The position numbers were made by a program, and so were the translations under genes. A stretch of 49,287 bases of DNA from a virus, in IMG/VR virus record IMGVR_UViG_3300049846_001794, positions 1 to 49,287 of that record; one strand, given 5' to 3'. A model generated the notes under the pieces. That model was not told the DNA's origin. It did not search any database and saw only the letters and a list, made by a program, of their open reading frames with translations. This document shows positions 1 to 49,287 of the stretch, piece by piece. How positions within the stretch are numbered: the first letter of the stretch is position 1; every line of letters starts with the position of its first letter.

Positions 1-185
1 AGCGACCCTGACCACGACCGCGACAGCGACCGCGACCCAGACCGCGACAGCGACCGCGACCGCGACCGCGACAGCGACCGCGACCGCGACCCAGACCGCG
101 CCCACAACCGCGACCGCGACCACAACCGCGACCGCGACCCTGACAGCGACTTTTCATAGACTAGACGTAGCAACGATTGATTCAT
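1..185 (-). CDS. Ser-X dipeptide-repeat protein 2, 5' part (continues at 49287 if circular)
   Basis: Starts at ATG 185-183, directly after the TAG of the preceding gene (TAGATG), with GGGGAG six bases upstream. The leader MNQSLLRLVYEKS matches the leaders of the two sister genes. After it, Ser (nearly always TCG) alternates with Arg, Leu, Trp or Gly. The frame is open through position 1. Joined to 49287, a codon is split 2+1, frame and hexamer phase both continue, and the product ends at TGA 49079-49077 after 131 aa. The cellular role is unknown. The Arg-rich character could suit nucleic acid or membrane binding, but that is only inference. The frame choice rests on the leader conservation, the stop-start coupling and the ribosome site. 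Confidence 0.6.
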   Translation of the reverse strand, partial: MNQSLLRLVYEKSLSGSRSRLWSRSRLWARSGSRSRSLSRSRSRSLSRSGSRSLSRSWSGS

Positions 186-368
186 CTAATGCTCCCCGGA
201 CCTCGACCATGACCGATGCCGTAACCGCGCCCACGACCGCGACCGCGACCGCCGCCCCGACCCAGACCCCGACTTAGACCACGACCATGACCACGACCAC
301 GACCTAGACCACGACCATGACCACGACCATGGCCATGACCACGACCACGACCTAGACCACGACTCAGA
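1..368. repeat. Degenerate hexanucleotide array, left part
   Basis: Nearly continuous six-base units of the GACCGC/GACCAC/GACCAT type, interrupted at about 152-208 by a unique segment. That segment encodes the leader of the next gene on the minus strand. Read on the minus strand the unit is TCG followed by NKG (K = G or T), so one codon is fixed as Ser and the next varies. The array continues at 48884-49287 if the map is circular. Confidence 0.9.
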
Positions 369-407
369 TTTTTCATGCCCTATGCGAAGGTAGGTTTGGG
401 AGATCAC
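186..407 (-). CDS. Ser-X dipeptide-repeat protein 1
   Basis: 73 aa, starting with GTG at 407. Its start overlaps the TGA of the upstream 87-aa gene (GTGA), which suggests translational coupling. The leader reads MISQTYLRIGHEKS and aligns with the leaders of the other two copies (x-Q-[ST]-x-L-R-[IL]-[GV]-[YH]-E-[KN]-S). Trp dominates the alternating positions here (SWSRSWSWSW), with Arg, Gly, Lys and Pro as well. The last residues are RSGEH, and the TAG is followed at once by the ATG of copy 2. Function is unknown. It could be dismissed as a chance ORF in a simple repeat, but the coupling and the shared leader argue that it is translated. Confidence 0.6.
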   Translation of the reverse strand: MISQTYLRIGHEKSESWSRSWSWSWPWSWSWSWSRSWSWSWSWSKSGSGSGRRSRSRSWARLRHRSWSRSGEH

Positions 408-667
408 TTCGTCACTCGCGGGAGAGGGACGCCTTCAGGCCATTCAACAGCATCGACAATCGACCCTCGGCCAACAATGCAAGGCCCTTTTATCGCCTCA
501 ACTTCAGACAATTCGCCAAATTCGACAGCGCGGGAGTATCTCCCGGTGTCAGCGACCCACGCTGCATCTTCGAGAACAAGTTCCTTCTCCCCGATATAAG
601 TCAGCCTTCCTGTGTAGTACATTGTCACGCCACGAATCAGATAATTTTTCCCTAGAAACCAAGGCAT
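404..667 (-). CDS. Conserved-looking 87-aa protein heading the Ser-X repeat cassette
   Basis: 87 aa, globular and complex in sequence, unlike its low-complexity neighbours. The ribosome site is AGGGGG about seven bases before the ATG. The core pattern is GKNYLIRGVTMYYTG, then LVLEDAAWVADTGRYS, then a hydrophobic segment ending VGRGSIVDAVEW. No signal peptide or membrane segment is visible. It is coupled (GTGA) to the first Ser-X repeat gene, so the two are probably co-expressed and functionally linked. I have an unverified impression of similar small proteins beside X-Gly hexamer-repeat proteins in other phage or bacterial genomes. No biochemical function can be assigned. Confidence 0.8.
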   Translation of the reverse strand: MPWFLGKNYLIRGVTMYYTGRLTYIGEKELVLEDAAWVADTGRYSRAVEFGELSEVEAIKGPCIVGRGSIVDAVEWPEGVPLPRVTK

Positions 668-3632: not shown

Positions 3633-4322
3633 ATGAGCAATCTTGAGCAAAAGCCTTACCCAATTCTTTACCCTCATATTGCCTCGACAGTCTCTTTAGA
3701 CAAAACGGCAAAAGGTGAGTTTATCCCTTCGCCGAAAGGTGTTGTAGTTCATTATACAGCGGGGCCTAGCGTTGAAGGTGCTGTCTCTGAGCTTCTGGCT
3801 AAAGATCTCGGCTATCACTTGATAATAGACAGAGATGGTAGAGTCTACCAAATGACCTCCCTCACCAAATCGGTGTGGCATGCAGGAAGGGCTTTCTGGA
3901 AGGGGTACTCCCCGAACCACTTTTTCTTGGGGGTAGCTCTAGTCTCTTGGGGGGAGCTTAAATTCAAGAAAGGGGAATACCGATCTTATGCGGGGACTGT
4001 AATCCCTCCCCAAGATGTTGTAACGGGTAAAACAGTCGGGCTTTATGCGGGGTCAGCAATCCCTCCCCAGGATGTTGTAGCGGGCAAAACGGTCGGAGGA
4101 GTGCTGGCATACTGGCACAAAGCCACCCTTGCCCAAAGGCTTTCGCTTGCCCAAATTCTTTCCTTCTTCCTTGAACAAGGGGGAAATAGAGATTTGATAT
4201 GCGGCCATGATGAATGTTGCCTCCCCAAGGGTAGGAAGATTGACCCCGGATGGATTCTTCAACAATCCATGGATGAGATAAGGAAGACAGCTAATGTCGG
4301 ATTCCCTAGACTTATATCCTAA
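3633..4322 (+). CDS. Endolysin, N-acetylmuramoyl-L-alanine amidase (Amidase_2 type)
   Basis: 229 aa. Amidase_2/PGRP-type enzymes cut the bond between N-acetylmuramic acid and L-Ala in peptidoglycan. The zinc-site signature is visible: His in VVVHYTAGPS, His in ICGHDECC and Asp in KGRKIDPGW, with LGYHLIIDRDGRVYQM between. No signal peptide is seen, so release would need a holin or similar. A 19-residue block (YAGTVIPPQDVVTGKTVGL) is duplicated in tandem at residues 119-156, in a loop region between the catalytic motifs. It overlaps the next gene by 29 bases. Confidence 0.9.
   Translation: MSNLEQKPYPILYPHIASTVSLDKTAKGEFIPSPKGVVVHYTAGPSVEGAVSELLAKDLGYHLIIDRDGRVYQMTSLTKSVWHAGRAFWKGYSPNHFFLGVALVSWGELKFKKGEYRSYAGTVIPPQDVVTGKTVGLYAGSAIPPQDVVAGKTVGGVLAYWHKATLAQRLSLAQILSFFLEQGGNRDLICGHDECCLPKGRKIDPGWILQQSMDEIRKTANVGFPRLIS
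3987..4100 (+). repeat. 57-bp tandem duplication inside the endolysin gene
   Basis: Units 3987-4043 and 4044-4100 are in frame and mostly identical, encoding YAG[TS][VA]IPPQDVV[TA]GKTVG twice. Several differences are synonymous, so the duplication is not brand new. Confidence 0.9.
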
Positions 4323-4500
4323 AAAGAAGAAAGAACCCCCGTCTGAGAGAGTCTTTGATATCAGGATCTCAGAAAAAGGCGGGCAAGTTATCTCAATCCT
4401 TGTCCCTCTCTCCCCGAATCAGATCTTGAGTGACCCCGAAGTGGCTAAAGAAGAATTACTCCAAGCCTTCAATAAACTGGTACAAAAACTTATAGTGTAA
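4294..4500 (+). CDS. Hypothetical protein (68 aa)
   Basis: Starts inside the endolysin 3' end, with GGAAG about eight bases upstream. It begins MSDSLDLYPKKKKEPPSER, has a beta-type middle (FDIRISEKGGQVISILVPL) and a helical end (KEELLQAFNKLVQKLIV). No family is recognised. It is the last gene of this rightward run, and the overlap with the endolysin suggests co-expression. Confidence 0.6.
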   Translation: MSDSLDLYPKKKKEPPSERVFDIRISEKGGQVISILVPLSPNQILSDPEVAKEELLQAFNKLVQKLIV

Positions 4501-4515
4501 AGACTTTTCTTTATG

Positions 4516-4722
4516 CTATTTAAAAGCTCTGTAAGCTATAACCGGGAAGTAGAAGACTACAAACAGGGGCACAATGGGGCCAATAGCAGCGGAGACTAAA
4601 AGGATAGAGAATGTCTTTGCTGTCGGTTTTGAGGGGTGGAGAAGAAGTGCAAGAATCGCAGAGAAAAGACACCATGCGGCGAGAAACTCAAAAACGAGGA
4701 AAATATCGACCACGACTCTCAC
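4516..4722 (-). CDS. Two-span membrane protein, holin-like (68 aa)
   Basis: Starts with GTG at 4722 (or GTG at 4713). Two hydrophobic segments are visible: roughly FLVFEFLAAWCLFSAILALLL and FSILLVSAAIGPIVPLFVVF, separated by a basic HPSKPTAK turn, with a short charged end (AYRAFK). Length and topology suit a class II holin or a small inner-membrane protein, and it lies near the endolysin. The ribosome site is poor, and the gene overlaps the plus-strand gene at 4611-4868 antiparallel by 112 bases, so one of the two may start later or not be expressed. Confidence 0.5.
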   Translation of the reverse strand: MRVVVDIFLVFEFLAAWCLFSAILALLLHPSKPTAKTFSILLVSAAIGPIVPLFVVFYFPVIAYRAFK

Positions 4723-4868
4723 AGAAAAAATCCAAGCTTGTGAATTTTAAGCTCACCCCAGAGCAATACGATTCTCTCAATAGAGTAGCGAAAGTTTTGA
4801 CTGGGGGAAACAAATCTTCTTTACTCAGAAGATGGATTATCGGTGCAGAAAAAAGCTTGAACGCCTAA
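4611..4868 (+). CDS. Probable ribbon-helix-helix DNA-binding protein (85 aa)
   Basis: The first ATG (4611) has an ideal AAGGA six to seven bases upstream. A second ATG at 4674 would give 64 aa and shorten the antisense overlap. The conserved-looking part is the end: KKSKLVNFKLTPEQYDSLNR followed by VAKVLTGGNKSSLLRRWIIG. This is a basic strand followed by two helices, as in Arc/CopG-type regulators. It ends six bases before the converging 4874 gene. Target unknown. Confidence 0.6.
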   Translation: MSLLSVLRGGEEVQESQRKDTMRRETQKRGKYRPRLSQKKSKLVNFKLTPEQYDSLNRVAKVLTGGNKSSLLRRWIIGAEKSLNA

Positions 4869-5055: not shown

Positions 5056-5130
5056 TGGCTCCTGGGATTGGGGTCGAACCAATGACGGTCGCATTAACAG
5101 TGCGAAGCTCTACCACTGAGCTACCCAGGA
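5056..5130 (-). tRNA. tRNA-Asn (anticodon GTT)
   Basis: A full cloverleaf on the minus strand. The acceptor TCCTGGG pairs with CCCAGGA, followed by G and an encoded CCA. The D arm is GCTC/GAGC. The anticodon stem TCGCA/TGCGA has loop CTGTTAA, with anticodon at 5098-5096. The T arm is ATTGG/CCAAT with loop TTCGACC. It lies inside the leftward operon between the helicase and the coiled-coil gene. Confidence 0.95.
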
Positions 5131-7993: not shown

Positions 7994-10078
7994 CTATAAA
8001 GTATTGTCTACGCAAAAATATTTGCGGTATCTATCAAGATCGGCCTGTCCTTTTTCGTCTGTATATTCGCACAACATTTTTACATTTTCAGGCGGGGAGC
8101 AAGGTAAGGTAGCGTAATCCTTAGACCACACCTCCCCCTCAAGGCGTATTGGGGATGTTACCCCATAGCGCGACATCACGTTTTGAAAAGCTTGTTGCAT
8201 CGCTGACATTAACGTCTTTATTGCGTTCATGTCGTAGGAGTCAATTTCAGCGTAAAGTGCATCATGTAGCGTGAAAACAATGTCTACCCCTTGATCTTGG
8301 GCGAGTCTCACAGCTTCCCGCATGATGACTCCACCATGACCTTGCACCGGAAAATTGCCAACGCTCCGCATATTTTCTTGATCCCCCCACATAACCCATC
8401 CATCGGGGAGCATGAGATGTTCGTCTTCTTGATACTTTTTTTTCACCCCCACTTTCCATTCCTCATAGTCTGAGTAAGTGGAGTAAAAGAGATCGATCAA
8501 GGCTTCAGCTTGAACTTCAGTGTAGGTCTTCCCTGTAATTGCAGACAGGCGAGGGGCAAGACCTTTTGCTGTCAAATCGTAGGAAATCCCCAAAACTGTT
8601 GTCTTGCAGCAATCTCTTTCAATCGGGTGAGTCTTCTTTGTGCCGTCTTTTGGAATGAGTCCAGCGTCTTTGCCGAAGGCTAGATAAACGTCCCCCGACT
8701 CATACGCTTCGATCATCTTTGCGTCTTGAGAGAGAATCGCAGCAATCAAAAACTCTTGGCTGGCGTAATCAATACCGCACAAGGCTCTGCCTGGGGGAGC
8801 TTCAAGGAAGTTTCGCATCCAATGCGCCTTCAGCGGAATGAATCCGATTGAACCAGGCTGACTTCTTGAAGTCTGAGAACCATAAATTCCAAAGTAAGGT
8901 CTGACCCTATTGTCTGACCCCACAAAGTCAGTGAAGACCCCTTTTTTAGATGTCTTTGAAACGATGAAGCCATTCAGGGATTGCTTAGTCTTGAGGTAGC
9001 GACAGAAAGCTCCAGCAAAGCCAGGGCTAGAACTATCAAACCAGTCTCTAAAAGCATCTTTCGATAGAGACAACTTCTTGACCTTTGACTTGCCCCCGTC
9101 AGTCATGCGCCAGTGCGGGAGCTTCTGAGATGCTACCCAATCTCTAATGGGTTTCTCACACATCGTCCACTTCTGGTCTTTCTTGGCCCAGCGGAAGGCT
9201 TTAACTTCGGGGGCGACTTCAAGACAGTGAGAAGCAGCTTCAGCCAGGATTGACGAAATATTTTGCGTAAAAAGGGAAATCTTTTGCATGTTGACCGGGT
9301 ATCCCAGGGCCAGCATTCTTGCTGTTCTTACCGCATAGTCCCCCCGCAAAATAGCTGCTTTAAGCCATTCGGCCTTGGCTTTTTCCCTTCTCTCCTCCAG
9401 ACCTTCAAAATCCCCCTTTAAATCGAAGGAAGGGTCAAGGCTACTGAGATGTGCTTTCCGTATCCCCAAGAGCATCCTGGGCAGGTTTTTGACATCTGAG
9501 GCGCAATATTCGGTAATCGGGGTCATGTTGGCTTGAATTTCGGCCCTACCCCCCCGAATGATGATGTCCCGCATAGCCGTCTTGTGGTCGGTGTCTATTT
9601 TTTCATCAAGTATTTTAAAAGTGGCGGCGGCGAGGGAATACTCAGGCTTGTGGTGAGCTTCATCTTCCTCAGAGTCACTGCGCTCCCATTTCGGGGGTGG
9701 GGGGACAGTCTTAATGACTTTGCCTTTGATGTACTGCTCGCCGTAAGCGTATTTGTGATGTTGATTCAGGAGACAGCGATATTCGAGATAAAGATCTATA
9801 GCGCGAAAAGTGGATAGCCAAGAGGTGTCCCCATCAAAAAGGGAGAGAAGACTTCTTGCTTCTGCTTCCATGACGTAAGCTACGAAAACATAGCCTTCGT
9901 CAATCAGCTTCTTGAAAAAATTTCTGGCCTCTTTCTTTTTGGAAGGATTCTCAAAGAGCCAAAAATCTCTGGTAAATTTCACATAGCCGTTATCTGTGCA
10001 AAGGACAGAGGCGCAAACGAGATTTAATTTTTTCTCTGAAATGCCGTTATACTCGAAGTCTAGGTAGCATACCCTCAT
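7994..10078 (-). CDS. Family A DNA polymerase with 3'-5' exonuclease domain (694 aa)
   Basis: The N-terminus carries a DnaQ-like exonuclease motif (YLDFEYNGISEKK, with D and E; a later AIDLYLEYR). The polymerase motifs are clear: motif A CGIDYASQEFL near residue 435, motif B RDCCKTTVLGISYD near 490 and motif C FTLHDALYAEID near 606. No 5'-3' exonuclease domain is present, as is common for phage enzymes. It begins three bases after the stop of the helicase gene. It is the replicative polymerase. Confidence 0.95.
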   Translation of the reverse strand: MRVCYLDFEYNGISEKKLNLVCASVLCTDNGYVKFTRDFWLFENPSKKKEARNFFKKLIDEGYVFVAYVMEAEARSLLSLFDGDTSWLSTFRAIDLYLEYRCLLNQHHKYAYGEQYIKGKVIKTVPPPPKWERSDSEEDEAHHKPEYSLAAATFKILDEKIDTDHKTAMRDIIIRGGRAEIQANMTPITEYCASDVKNLPRMLLGIRKAHLSSLDPSFDLKGDFEGLEERREKAKAEWLKAAILRGDYAVRTARMLALGYPVNMQKISLFTQNISSILAEAASHCLEVAPEVKAFRWAKKDQKWTMCEKPIRDWVASQKLPHWRMTDGGKSKVKKLSLSKDAFRDWFDSSSPGFAGAFCRYLKTKQSLNGFIVSKTSKKGVFTDFVGSDNRVRPYFGIYGSQTSRSQPGSIGFIPLKAHWMRNFLEAPPGRALCGIDYASQEFLIAAILSQDAKMIEAYESGDVYLAFGKDAGLIPKDGTKKTHPIERDCCKTTVLGISYDLTAKGLAPRLSAITGKTYTEVQAEALIDLFYSTYSDYEEWKVGVKKKYQEDEHLMLPDGWVMWGDQENMRSVGNFPVQGHGGVIMREAVRLAQDQGVDIVFTLHDALYAEIDSYDMNAIKTLMSAMQQAFQNVMSRYGVTSPIRLEGEVWSKDYATLPCSPPENVKMLCEYTDEKGQADLDRYRKYFCVDNTL

Positions 10079-48281: not shown

Positions 48282-48647
48282 ATGTCTTTTTTCATGATTT
48301 GGATTCTTTGGACAATGCTTGTAGTGTCAGATATAGCTCTTGGCGGGTCTTTCGATCTCCCGGCTATTTTGTCATCCTGGCCTGAGCTTGGGAAACTTCT
48401 AGCCTTTGGCGCGATAGTCCAATTCTCACTAAGAGCCATCGCTGAAGTTTTGACCAGATCTTCCGATGCTCTGGACAATGCAAGCCCCGCGAAAGAGTCC
48501 TTGAAGAAAGCAGCAAGCGGCCTATCTGAAGTAGCTTGGTTTCTGGGTGTTGTTTTGGGTAAATTTGGATACGGAGAGCCTAAGCTTGTCACAGCGGAGA
48601 AAATCTCTCAACTCTCAATCTCTCCCCCAGAAGAAAAAGTGTCATGA
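48282..48647 (+). CDS. Membrane protein, possible holin (121 aa)
   Basis: Start at ATG 48282 after GGAGGG; an ORF reaching back to 48138 lies inside the previous gene. There are two hydrophobic segments (MSFFMIWILWTMLVVSDIAL; LAFGAIVQFSLRAIAEVLT) with a charged end (SISPPEEKVS). Topology fits a small holin or a membrane effector. ATGA overlap with the next gene. Confidence 0.6.
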   Translation: MSFFMIWILWTMLVVSDIALGGSFDLPAILSSWPELGKLLAFGAIVQFSLRAIAEVLTRSSDALDNASPAKESLKKAASGLSEVAWFLGVVLGKFGYGEPKLVTAEKISQLSISPPEEKVS

Positions 48648-48883
48648 CTGTAGATGCAAAGAAAGCTGTGTCTTCAGTAGACCTAACCTTGAAAGTGATA
48701 GCCTTTGCAAAGATGATCCTCTTTGCAACGGGTCTTGCTCTAATCGACCTTGCGAGAAGAAAGCAAAAGATTGCAGAACTAAAAGAGAGATTGGCTGAAG
48801 ATGGGTTGAAGCTAGAGAGAAGGAAGGAAGACCCGAAAAAATCCCCTGACGAAGTGATTGAAAATTACCTCAAGGGTATTTAG
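48644..48883 (+). CDS. Single-span membrane protein with charged helix (79 aa)
   Basis: Begins MTVDAKKAVSSVDLTLKVIA; one membrane helix (VIAFAKMILFATGLALIDLA), then a long charged helix (RRKQKIAELKERLAEDGLKL). It resembles inner-membrane spanins in layout but has no neighbouring outer spanin lipoprotein that I can identify with confidence. Its stop overlaps the end of the leftward Ser-X gene by four bases. Confidence 0.6.
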   Translation: MTVDAKKAVSSVDLTLKVIAFAKMILFATGLALIDLARRKQKIAELKERLAEDGLKLERRKEDPKKSPDEVIENYLKGI

Positions 48884-49080
48884 CCTGACCACGGCCATGA
48901 CCGCGACCCCGACCGCCACCCAGACCCCGACCGCCATCGCGACCACGACAACGACCGCGACCGCGACCACGACCCCGCCAACGATCGCGACCACGACAAC
49001 GACCGCGACCGCGACCGCGACCCTGACCACGACCGCGATTTAGAATTTTCATAGCCTATACGCAGCAACGATTGAGTCAT
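48880..49080 (-). CDS. Ser-X dipeptide-repeat protein 3 (66 aa)
   Basis: Starts at ATG 49080-49078, overlapping the TGA of copy 2 (ATGA); a longer ORF back to 49122 is not needed. The leader MTQSLLRIGYENS is the closest match to copy 2. The repeat then reads SRSWSGSRSRSRSLSWSRSL and onwards, ending RSWPWSG. About 35 residues in the middle are identical to a part of copy 2, from a shared 105-bp DNA block. It ends convergent with the membrane gene at 48644-48883. Function unknown. Confidence 0.6.
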   Translation of the reverse strand: MTQSLLRIGYENSKSRSWSGSRSRSRSLSWSRSLAGSWSRSRSLSWSRWRSGSGWRSGSRSWPWSG

Positions 49081-49287
49081 AGTATTGTCCCCGACCGCCA
49101 CCGCGACCACGACCCTGACCACGACCTCGACCTAGGCATCGACCTAGGCATCTTTCTCGACCACGACCCCGACCGCCACCGCGACCCCGACCGCCACCCC
49201 GACCCCGACCGCCATCGCGACCACGACAACGACCGCGACCGCGACCACGACCCCGCCAACGATCGCGACCACGACAACGACCGCGAC
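48884..49287. repeat. Degenerate hexanucleotide array, right part
   Basis: Six-base GACCGC-type units with a break near 49037-49092 that encodes the next leader. A 105-bp block (48905-49009) recurs at 49183-49287 with one mismatch, the second copy ending exactly at the window end. In the circular join, the sequence after the second copy (positions 1-24) matches the sequence after the first apart from one six-base unit and a single base. Confidence 0.9.
49077..49287 (-). CDS. Ser-X dipeptide-repeat protein 2, 3' part
   Basis: Continues the gene that starts at 185. The frame at 49286 is the one predicted from the left part. It reads Ser-X until a break (SRKMPRSMPRSRSW), then SGSWSRWRSGTIL and TGA. 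The TGA shares bases with the ATG of copy 3. The methionine- and proline-bearing interruption is unlike the rest of the array. Confidence 0.55.
   Translation of the reverse strand, partial: SRSLSWSRSLAGSWSRSRSLSWSRWRSGSGWRSGSRWRSGSWSRKMPRSMPRSRSWSGSWSRWRSGTIL

Follow-up and report, generated by a model that had tools for sequence, protein, structure and literature searches.

The window analysed here, a whole IMG/VR virus contig of 49,287 bases, belongs to a tailed phage in which terminase, portal, head, tape-measure, DNA polymerase and primase genes were recognised. At its left end, on the minus strand, lies an 87-aa gene followed by Ser-X genes, which contain nothing beyond a leader and a repeat in which Ser alternates with a variable residue; the remainder of the set is found at the right end, at 49286-48880 (Table 1). 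The junctions within the cassette overlap or abut (GTGA, TAGATG and ATGA). ORF prediction and the sequence itself agree with the initial annotation on the 87-aa gene and the three Ser-X genes after it, with their coordinates and junctions, on the resumption of the set at the right end and on the reading of the three leaders. Joining the contig ends without added bases gives a single open Ser-X frame of 131 codons that reads through the junction without a stop; a circular genome, cut inside an array, is therefore probable (an inference, as the record is classed as linear). The three Ser-X genes would then have 73, about 131 and 66 codons. The minus-strand (replication) gene set ends with the cassette, which is convergent with the structural genes and not placed among them. 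A 79-aa gene at 48644-48883 (+), convergent with the cassette, matches the N-terminal domain of H-NS only weakly (E 0.015, short of the cut-off). Elsewhere, the phage has a single tRNA gene, tRNA-Asn(GTT), at 5056-5130 (-), and two copies of a 57-bp direct repeat at 3986-4096, inside the ORF at 3633-4322 (+).

Table 1. Features of the cassette at the left and right ends of the window.
Feature	Position	Strand	Basis
87-aa partner gene (named LSm87 here), predicted Sm/LSm-like fold	404..667	-	ORF, 205 viral-contig relatives, AF2, Foldseek
Ser-X gene 1, 73 aa; its GTG overlaps the TGA of the 87-aa gene (GTGA)	186..407	-	
Ser-X gene 2, 5' part, truncated by the contig start; its ATG, at 185, abuts the TAG of gene 1	3..185	-	
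Ser-X gene 2, 3' part, assuming a circular record (circularity inferred, not shown)	49077..49286	-	
Ser-X gene 3, 66 aa; ATG overlaps the TGA of gene 2 (ATGA)	48880..49080	-	
Leader 1, VISQTYLRIGHEKS / VISQTYLRIGHEK	369..407	-	
Leader 2, MNQSLLRLVYEKS	147..185	-	
Leader 3, MTQSLLRIGYENS	49042..49080	-	
GGGGAG, possible ribosome-binding site of gene 2	192..197	-	Sequence
GGGGAC, possible ribosome-binding site of gene 3	49087..49092	-	Sequence
Period-6 array, gene 2	2..150	.	Tandem Repeats Finder
Period-6 array, gene 1	231..363	.	Tandem Repeats Finder
Period-6 array, gene 3, 48-bp higher-order unit	48899..49038	.	Tandem Repeats Finder
Period-6 array, gene 2 3' part, 48-bp higher-order unit	49158..49287	.	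Tandem Repeats Finder

Within the window alone, the frame of the repeat genes is ambiguous: a Gly-X frame is open as well and, in gene 1, is more regular than Ser-X, so the choice required evidence from relatives. Arrays gathered by the GG dinucleotide alone, with serine ignored, numbered 142 and comprised 3,856 hexamers. In the TC-type arrays (n=116), the third base was G in 1626 hexamers, T in 1057, A in 175 and C in 39, while in the AG-type arrays (n=18) it was C in 351, T in 88, A in 1 and G in none, i.e. one exception among 440 hexamers. These counts reproduce the degeneracy of the two codon boxes for serine (Fisher p about 1e-163, with the reservation that hexamers are not independent). 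Ten genomes with the 87-aa family, and nine with a second family described below, write serine as AGC/AGT instead of TCN and keep the residue, and the much more degenerate array of locus L047 still keeps Ser-X. Across 61 sequences, the leaders share the consensus M-N-x-A-[IL]-L-R-x-G-[FYL]-[DE]-x-S and draw on the full set of codons for Arg (six), Gly (four) and Ala (four). Given the third-base degeneracy, the synonymous leader codons and the degenerate L047 array, Ser-X is, on codon evidence, the coding frame of a protein under selection, although expression is untested. The initial annotation, which had read the genes in this frame and held that they are not a junk repeat, is thus borne out by array codons that follow the genetic code and by leaders conserved in amino acids; the codon evidence is an unusually clean proof of protein-level selection on low-complexity genes.

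Other readings of the repeats were considered. Gly-X (X-Gly) as the coding frame of the window, though perfectly periodic in gene 1, was rejected, as AGY-type relatives keep Ser and lose the Gly-Arg pattern. A programmed frameshift from the leader into the Gly-X frame, at the A-run that follows it, was dropped because leader and Ser-X share one frame, and a pure DNA repeat is contradicted by codon degeneracy and leader conservation. The length of these low-complexity DNA repeats, and the fact that more than one frame is open inside the window, would also suit a replication, recombination or regulatory element acting as DNA or RNA, with translation incidental. We give this account practically no credence: AGC/AGT replaces TCN with Ser kept in both families, the third-base degeneracy obeys the genetic code, leaders are conserved at the amino-acid level and degenerate forms such as L047 retain Ser-X.

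The 87-aa protein retrieved 21 relatives from viral contigs, and a scan with their alignment raised the number to 205. The family is present in only one record of the INPHARED phage collection (MW202573.1), and a plasmid scan returned no relatives. Among about 85,000 species genomes, it was detected in three MAG contigs, labelled Bathyarchaeota, Woesearchaeota and FCB, and in a one-phylum genome set in 1 of 371 genomes. Given how few they are, these contigs are probably binned viral contigs, and the MAG matches gave no host assignment. A Ser-X array lies downstream in 90 of the 104 loci inspected, mostly 24-50 nt past the matched region. The other 14 loci are mostly contig ends or arrays too degenerate for the detector that are still Ser/Thr-X (L085, L089, L095, L060 and L014), and L064 and L071 are real exceptions. 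The partner stop overlaps the Ser-X start by 4 nt in 38 of 65 cases. The pairing of the 87-aa gene with Ser-X genes is therefore well supported, and with it the earlier proposals that the Ser-X gene is coupled to the gene upstream and that the latter is a dedicated partner. Homologues never followed by repeats would have refuted these proposals, and the opposite was found. In locus L012, an ORF resembling by eye an HNH homing endonuclease (about 4259-4780) is located between the 87-aa gene and the Ser-X gene, as if the cassette had been invaded.

The residues at X are mostly Arg (959), Trp (848) and Gly (675), and the Ser-X proteins have a median length of 71 aa, a net charge of +11 and 12% Trp. 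Acidic X residues are strongly avoided in arrays linked to the 87-aa family (GAG 5/640 vs CAG+AAG 121/1015); this avoidance does not extend to the second family (E 21, K 28, Q 9), and we therefore draw no general argument from it. Beta-sheet fibrous proteins typically show a strict alternation between a small residue (here Ser or, in the module described below, Gly) and a variable residue, and the repeat proteins might accordingly be a silk-like beta material or a virion or fibre component for which the Sm-like protein serves as assembly factor. The gene context speaks against it: the cassette of the window ends a replication gene set outside the structural genes, and no recurrent structural neighbour is present among the relatives, whose most recurrent recognisable neighbour, judged by eye, is a RecT-like gene. 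We think a structural role quite unlikely.

The 87-aa relatives occur in many unrelated gene neighbourhoods and contigs, and the arrays vary. L005 and L007, two close phages that share about 91% identity across the region, differ clearly in their arrays, in line with the hypervariability initially attributed to these proteins, and nine arrays follow one partner gene in tandem in L076. Such accessory behaviour, together with arrays that vary between close phages, is what a counter-defence or host take-over device would display, in which a nucleic acid or protein of the host would be the target and the polymer its decoy or sponge; as no particular target is indicated and defence-related neighbours were not noted (without a PADLOC search), we consider this unlikely.

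AlphaFold2 modelled the 87-aa protein with a pLDDT of 96.5 (87 aligned sequences), and almost all of the best Foldseek matches of this model in the PDB come from Sm, LSm or SmAP proteins (probability 1.00, E from 2e-3, TM 0.5-0.6), so that a five-stranded Sm fold is predicted, though not from a solved structure. Sequence comparison was much less informative: the Pfam LSM/Hfq profiles matched none of 20 members at E 0.1, nor the window protein at E 1, Pfam and PHROGs gave nothing useful (the best weak PHROG match was phrog_10894, E 0.0011) and a PDB sequence search was uninformative. The invariant residues of the family are V14, T15, G20, W37, E55 and E57; a GRG-[SA]-I segment looks Sm2-like by eye and is not conserved in all members. 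Because a Pfam LSM match is lacking, we describe the protein as Sm-like in predicted fold and not as a proven Sm/LSm member, for which there are no ring or RNA-binding data.

An unbiased DNA scan for (TCNNGG)8 yielded 126 arrays, of which 53 have the 87-aa family upstream, 25 are too near a contig end and 48 lack it. Directly upstream of about 19 of these 48 is another protein of about 88 aa, which hhalign identifies as a homologue of the 87-aa family (probability 96.9%, E 1.8e-10) and which is likewise predicted to be Sm-like (AF2 pLDDT 84.7; Foldseek PDB matches nearly all Sm/LSm, probability 1.00, best E 3.6e-4), with no convincing Pfam or PHROG match. This second family is followed by a Ser-X gene in 74 of 76 informative loci, and the leader there differs from the one linked to the 87-aa family, often reading M...KQKYRS. 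As each partner family has its own leader, these data suggest that leader and partner recognise each other, which has not been shown. In L231, the gene just upstream of the array near 8976, on the minus strand, encodes a divergent protein of 104 aa that belongs to the second family (30% identity) and is followed by a Ser-X gene, which suggests that more families remain undetected. Several of the remaining unlinked arrays look like unrelated Ser-Arg-rich or antisense low-complexity sequence. Ser-Arg/Ser-Gly arrays without a recognised Sm-like gene upstream were found in L205, L207, L245, L258, L290, L300 and L302 and are apparently unrelated low-complexity sequence; given such cases, TCNNGG repeats are not all part of this system.

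The suggestion, in the initial annotation, that similar partner genes lie beside X-Gly repeats is confirmed by DUF6948. A neighbouring gene in L012 encodes DUF6948 (PF22253, E 1e-32) and is followed by a Gly-[S/D/Y] gene, and the same order of DUF6948 and Gly-X gene is found in 90 of 92 loci, with X being Ser (1228), Tyr (884), Asp (675) or Asn (202). Isolated phages with this order include Iodobacter PhiPLPE, Pectobacterium Koroua and Abuela, Chlorobiaceae CV-1-33 and Vibrio IKEMa6-1. DUF6948 is thus, like the 87-aa protein (90/92 vs 90/104), a small phage protein encoded directly upstream of a dipeptide-repeat gene. It also has a similar predicted fold, as the BFVD matches of the 87-aa model in Foldseek include three DUF6948 proteins. 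In contrast to the Ser-X module, the repeat is Gly-[S/Y/D/N], acidic and Tyr-rich, and the leader is another one. Sequence homology between the two partners is not established: hhalign gave a probability of only 1-7%, and the 87-aa family had no match to the PF22253 profile and so did not reach its gathering cut-off.

The two modules adjoin each other in several genomes. Of 49 genomes that carry the 87-aa gene, 3 have a DUF6948 match above the cut-off, in each case no more than about 1.2 kb away and on the same strand; the modules lie side by side in L012, L024, L047 and L090, the last of which encodes in a row the end of a DUF6948-like gene, Gly-X, the 87-aa gene and Ser-X, and a Gly-X gene immediately precedes the 87-aa gene in L009 and at two places in L048. 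Genomes with both modules are nevertheless a minority, and the window contains the Ser-X module alone. Net charges are opposite within the pairs, with medians of -2 for the 87-aa family and +11 for Ser-X, and of +1 for DUF6948 and -7 for Gly-X; the second family (-3) is likewise paired with an Arg-rich Ser-X protein.

High positive charge and Trp content make up a composition seen in cationic antimicrobial peptides. The Arg/Trp-rich Ser-X protein, with its charge of about +11 and about 12% Trp, could be a host-inhibitory or membrane-active peptide with the 87-aa protein as its chaperone or antidote, an arrangement like a toxin-antitoxin or lysis pair that the small, tightly coupled two-gene layout would fit. 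Several observations make this rather unlikely: no hydrophobic stretch is evident in the Ser-X sequences, up to nine tandem arrays follow one partner gene, and the Gly-[S/Y/D] polymer of the parallel DUF6948 module is acidic and could not act in this way.

The interpretation that we prefer, tentatively and at somewhat less than an even chance, is that of a split Sm-like system, in which a folded core and a separate, co-made disordered tail polymer carry opposite charge. The first part would be the small protein with the Sm/LSm-like fold (the 87-aa gene) and the second one or more co-translated low-complexity proteins consisting of a short conserved leader and (Ser-[Arg/Trp/Gly])n. The leader may dock on its own Sm-like partner, with the polymer held to the core by leader and charge, so that the repeat would act as the separately encoded disordered tail of a presumably ring-forming core. 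The assembly would bind or organise nucleic acid during infection, through multivalent sticker contacts (Arg, Trp) or as a condensate, and the polymer may tune nucleic-acid binding by the core. The DUF6948/Gly-X module would work in the same manner with the charge reversed, some genomes carrying both. Function is inferred throughout, without expression, binding or ring data; a Foldseek E of only about 2e-3 for the 87-aa protein and the missing Pfam LSM match count against the proposal, as do the lack of any Sm-like domain fused to a repeat in the loci examined, the small share of genomes with both modules and the unestablished sequence homology of DUF6948 to the 87-aa family. An extension, that split-Sm rings with separate polymer tails from the acidic Gly-[D/Y/S]/DUF6948 and the basic Ser-[R/W/G]/87-aa modules co-assemble into a phage-made nucleic-acid condensate or compartment, is doubtful.

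Known systems resemble the module in part. The eukaryotic SmB, D1 and D3 proteins bear Arg-Gly dipeptide tails, and the predicted fold places the 87-aa protein near the Sm/LSm/Hfq superfamily, differing in that its sequence has no Pfam LSM match and its proposed tail is encoded by a gene of its own. Hfq offers a precedent for the tuning of an Sm core by a charged disordered tail: its C-terminal domain has an acidic tip that binds the protein's own basic Sm core in competition with nucleic acid (PMC5606850). Eukaryotic SR proteins (RS domains) share the Arg-Ser dipeptide repeats, whereas the phage cassette lacks an RRM domain, its X is also Trp and Gly, and the repeat is a separate small gene beside an Sm-like protein. 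The uncultivated phage ctTUS972 (MW202573.1, Manatee Spring) has, like the window, the 87-aa family and a Ser-X gene, annotated as hypothetical; it is another phage, of 34.6 kb, and its partner protein has 46% identity.

We found no published description of DUF6948, of such phage Sm-like proteins or of the repeat genes, and nothing relevant on dipeptide repeats and phage condensates; the literature coverage was incomplete, so this does not imply that they are not known. The data point to the pairing of an Sm-like gene with dipeptide repeats as an undescribed phage system, present in hundreds of uncultivated phages. Three families of small proteins with a predicted Sm-like fold occur in many uncultivated phages, DUF6948 also in some isolates, and they are systematically accompanied by two-residue polymers, which annotation either omits or labels hypothetical. 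If the functional inference is true, sticker-and-spacer proteins such as those in eukaryotic RNP granules are also at work in prokaryotic viruses, and the isolated phages with the Gly-X version make function testable now. In PhiPLPE (L106, EU876853.1), the Gly-X gene that follows DUF6948, at about 1190-1410 of the locus, is unannotated in GenBank while its neighbours are annotated, and repeat genes of this kind seem to be skipped by gene callers.
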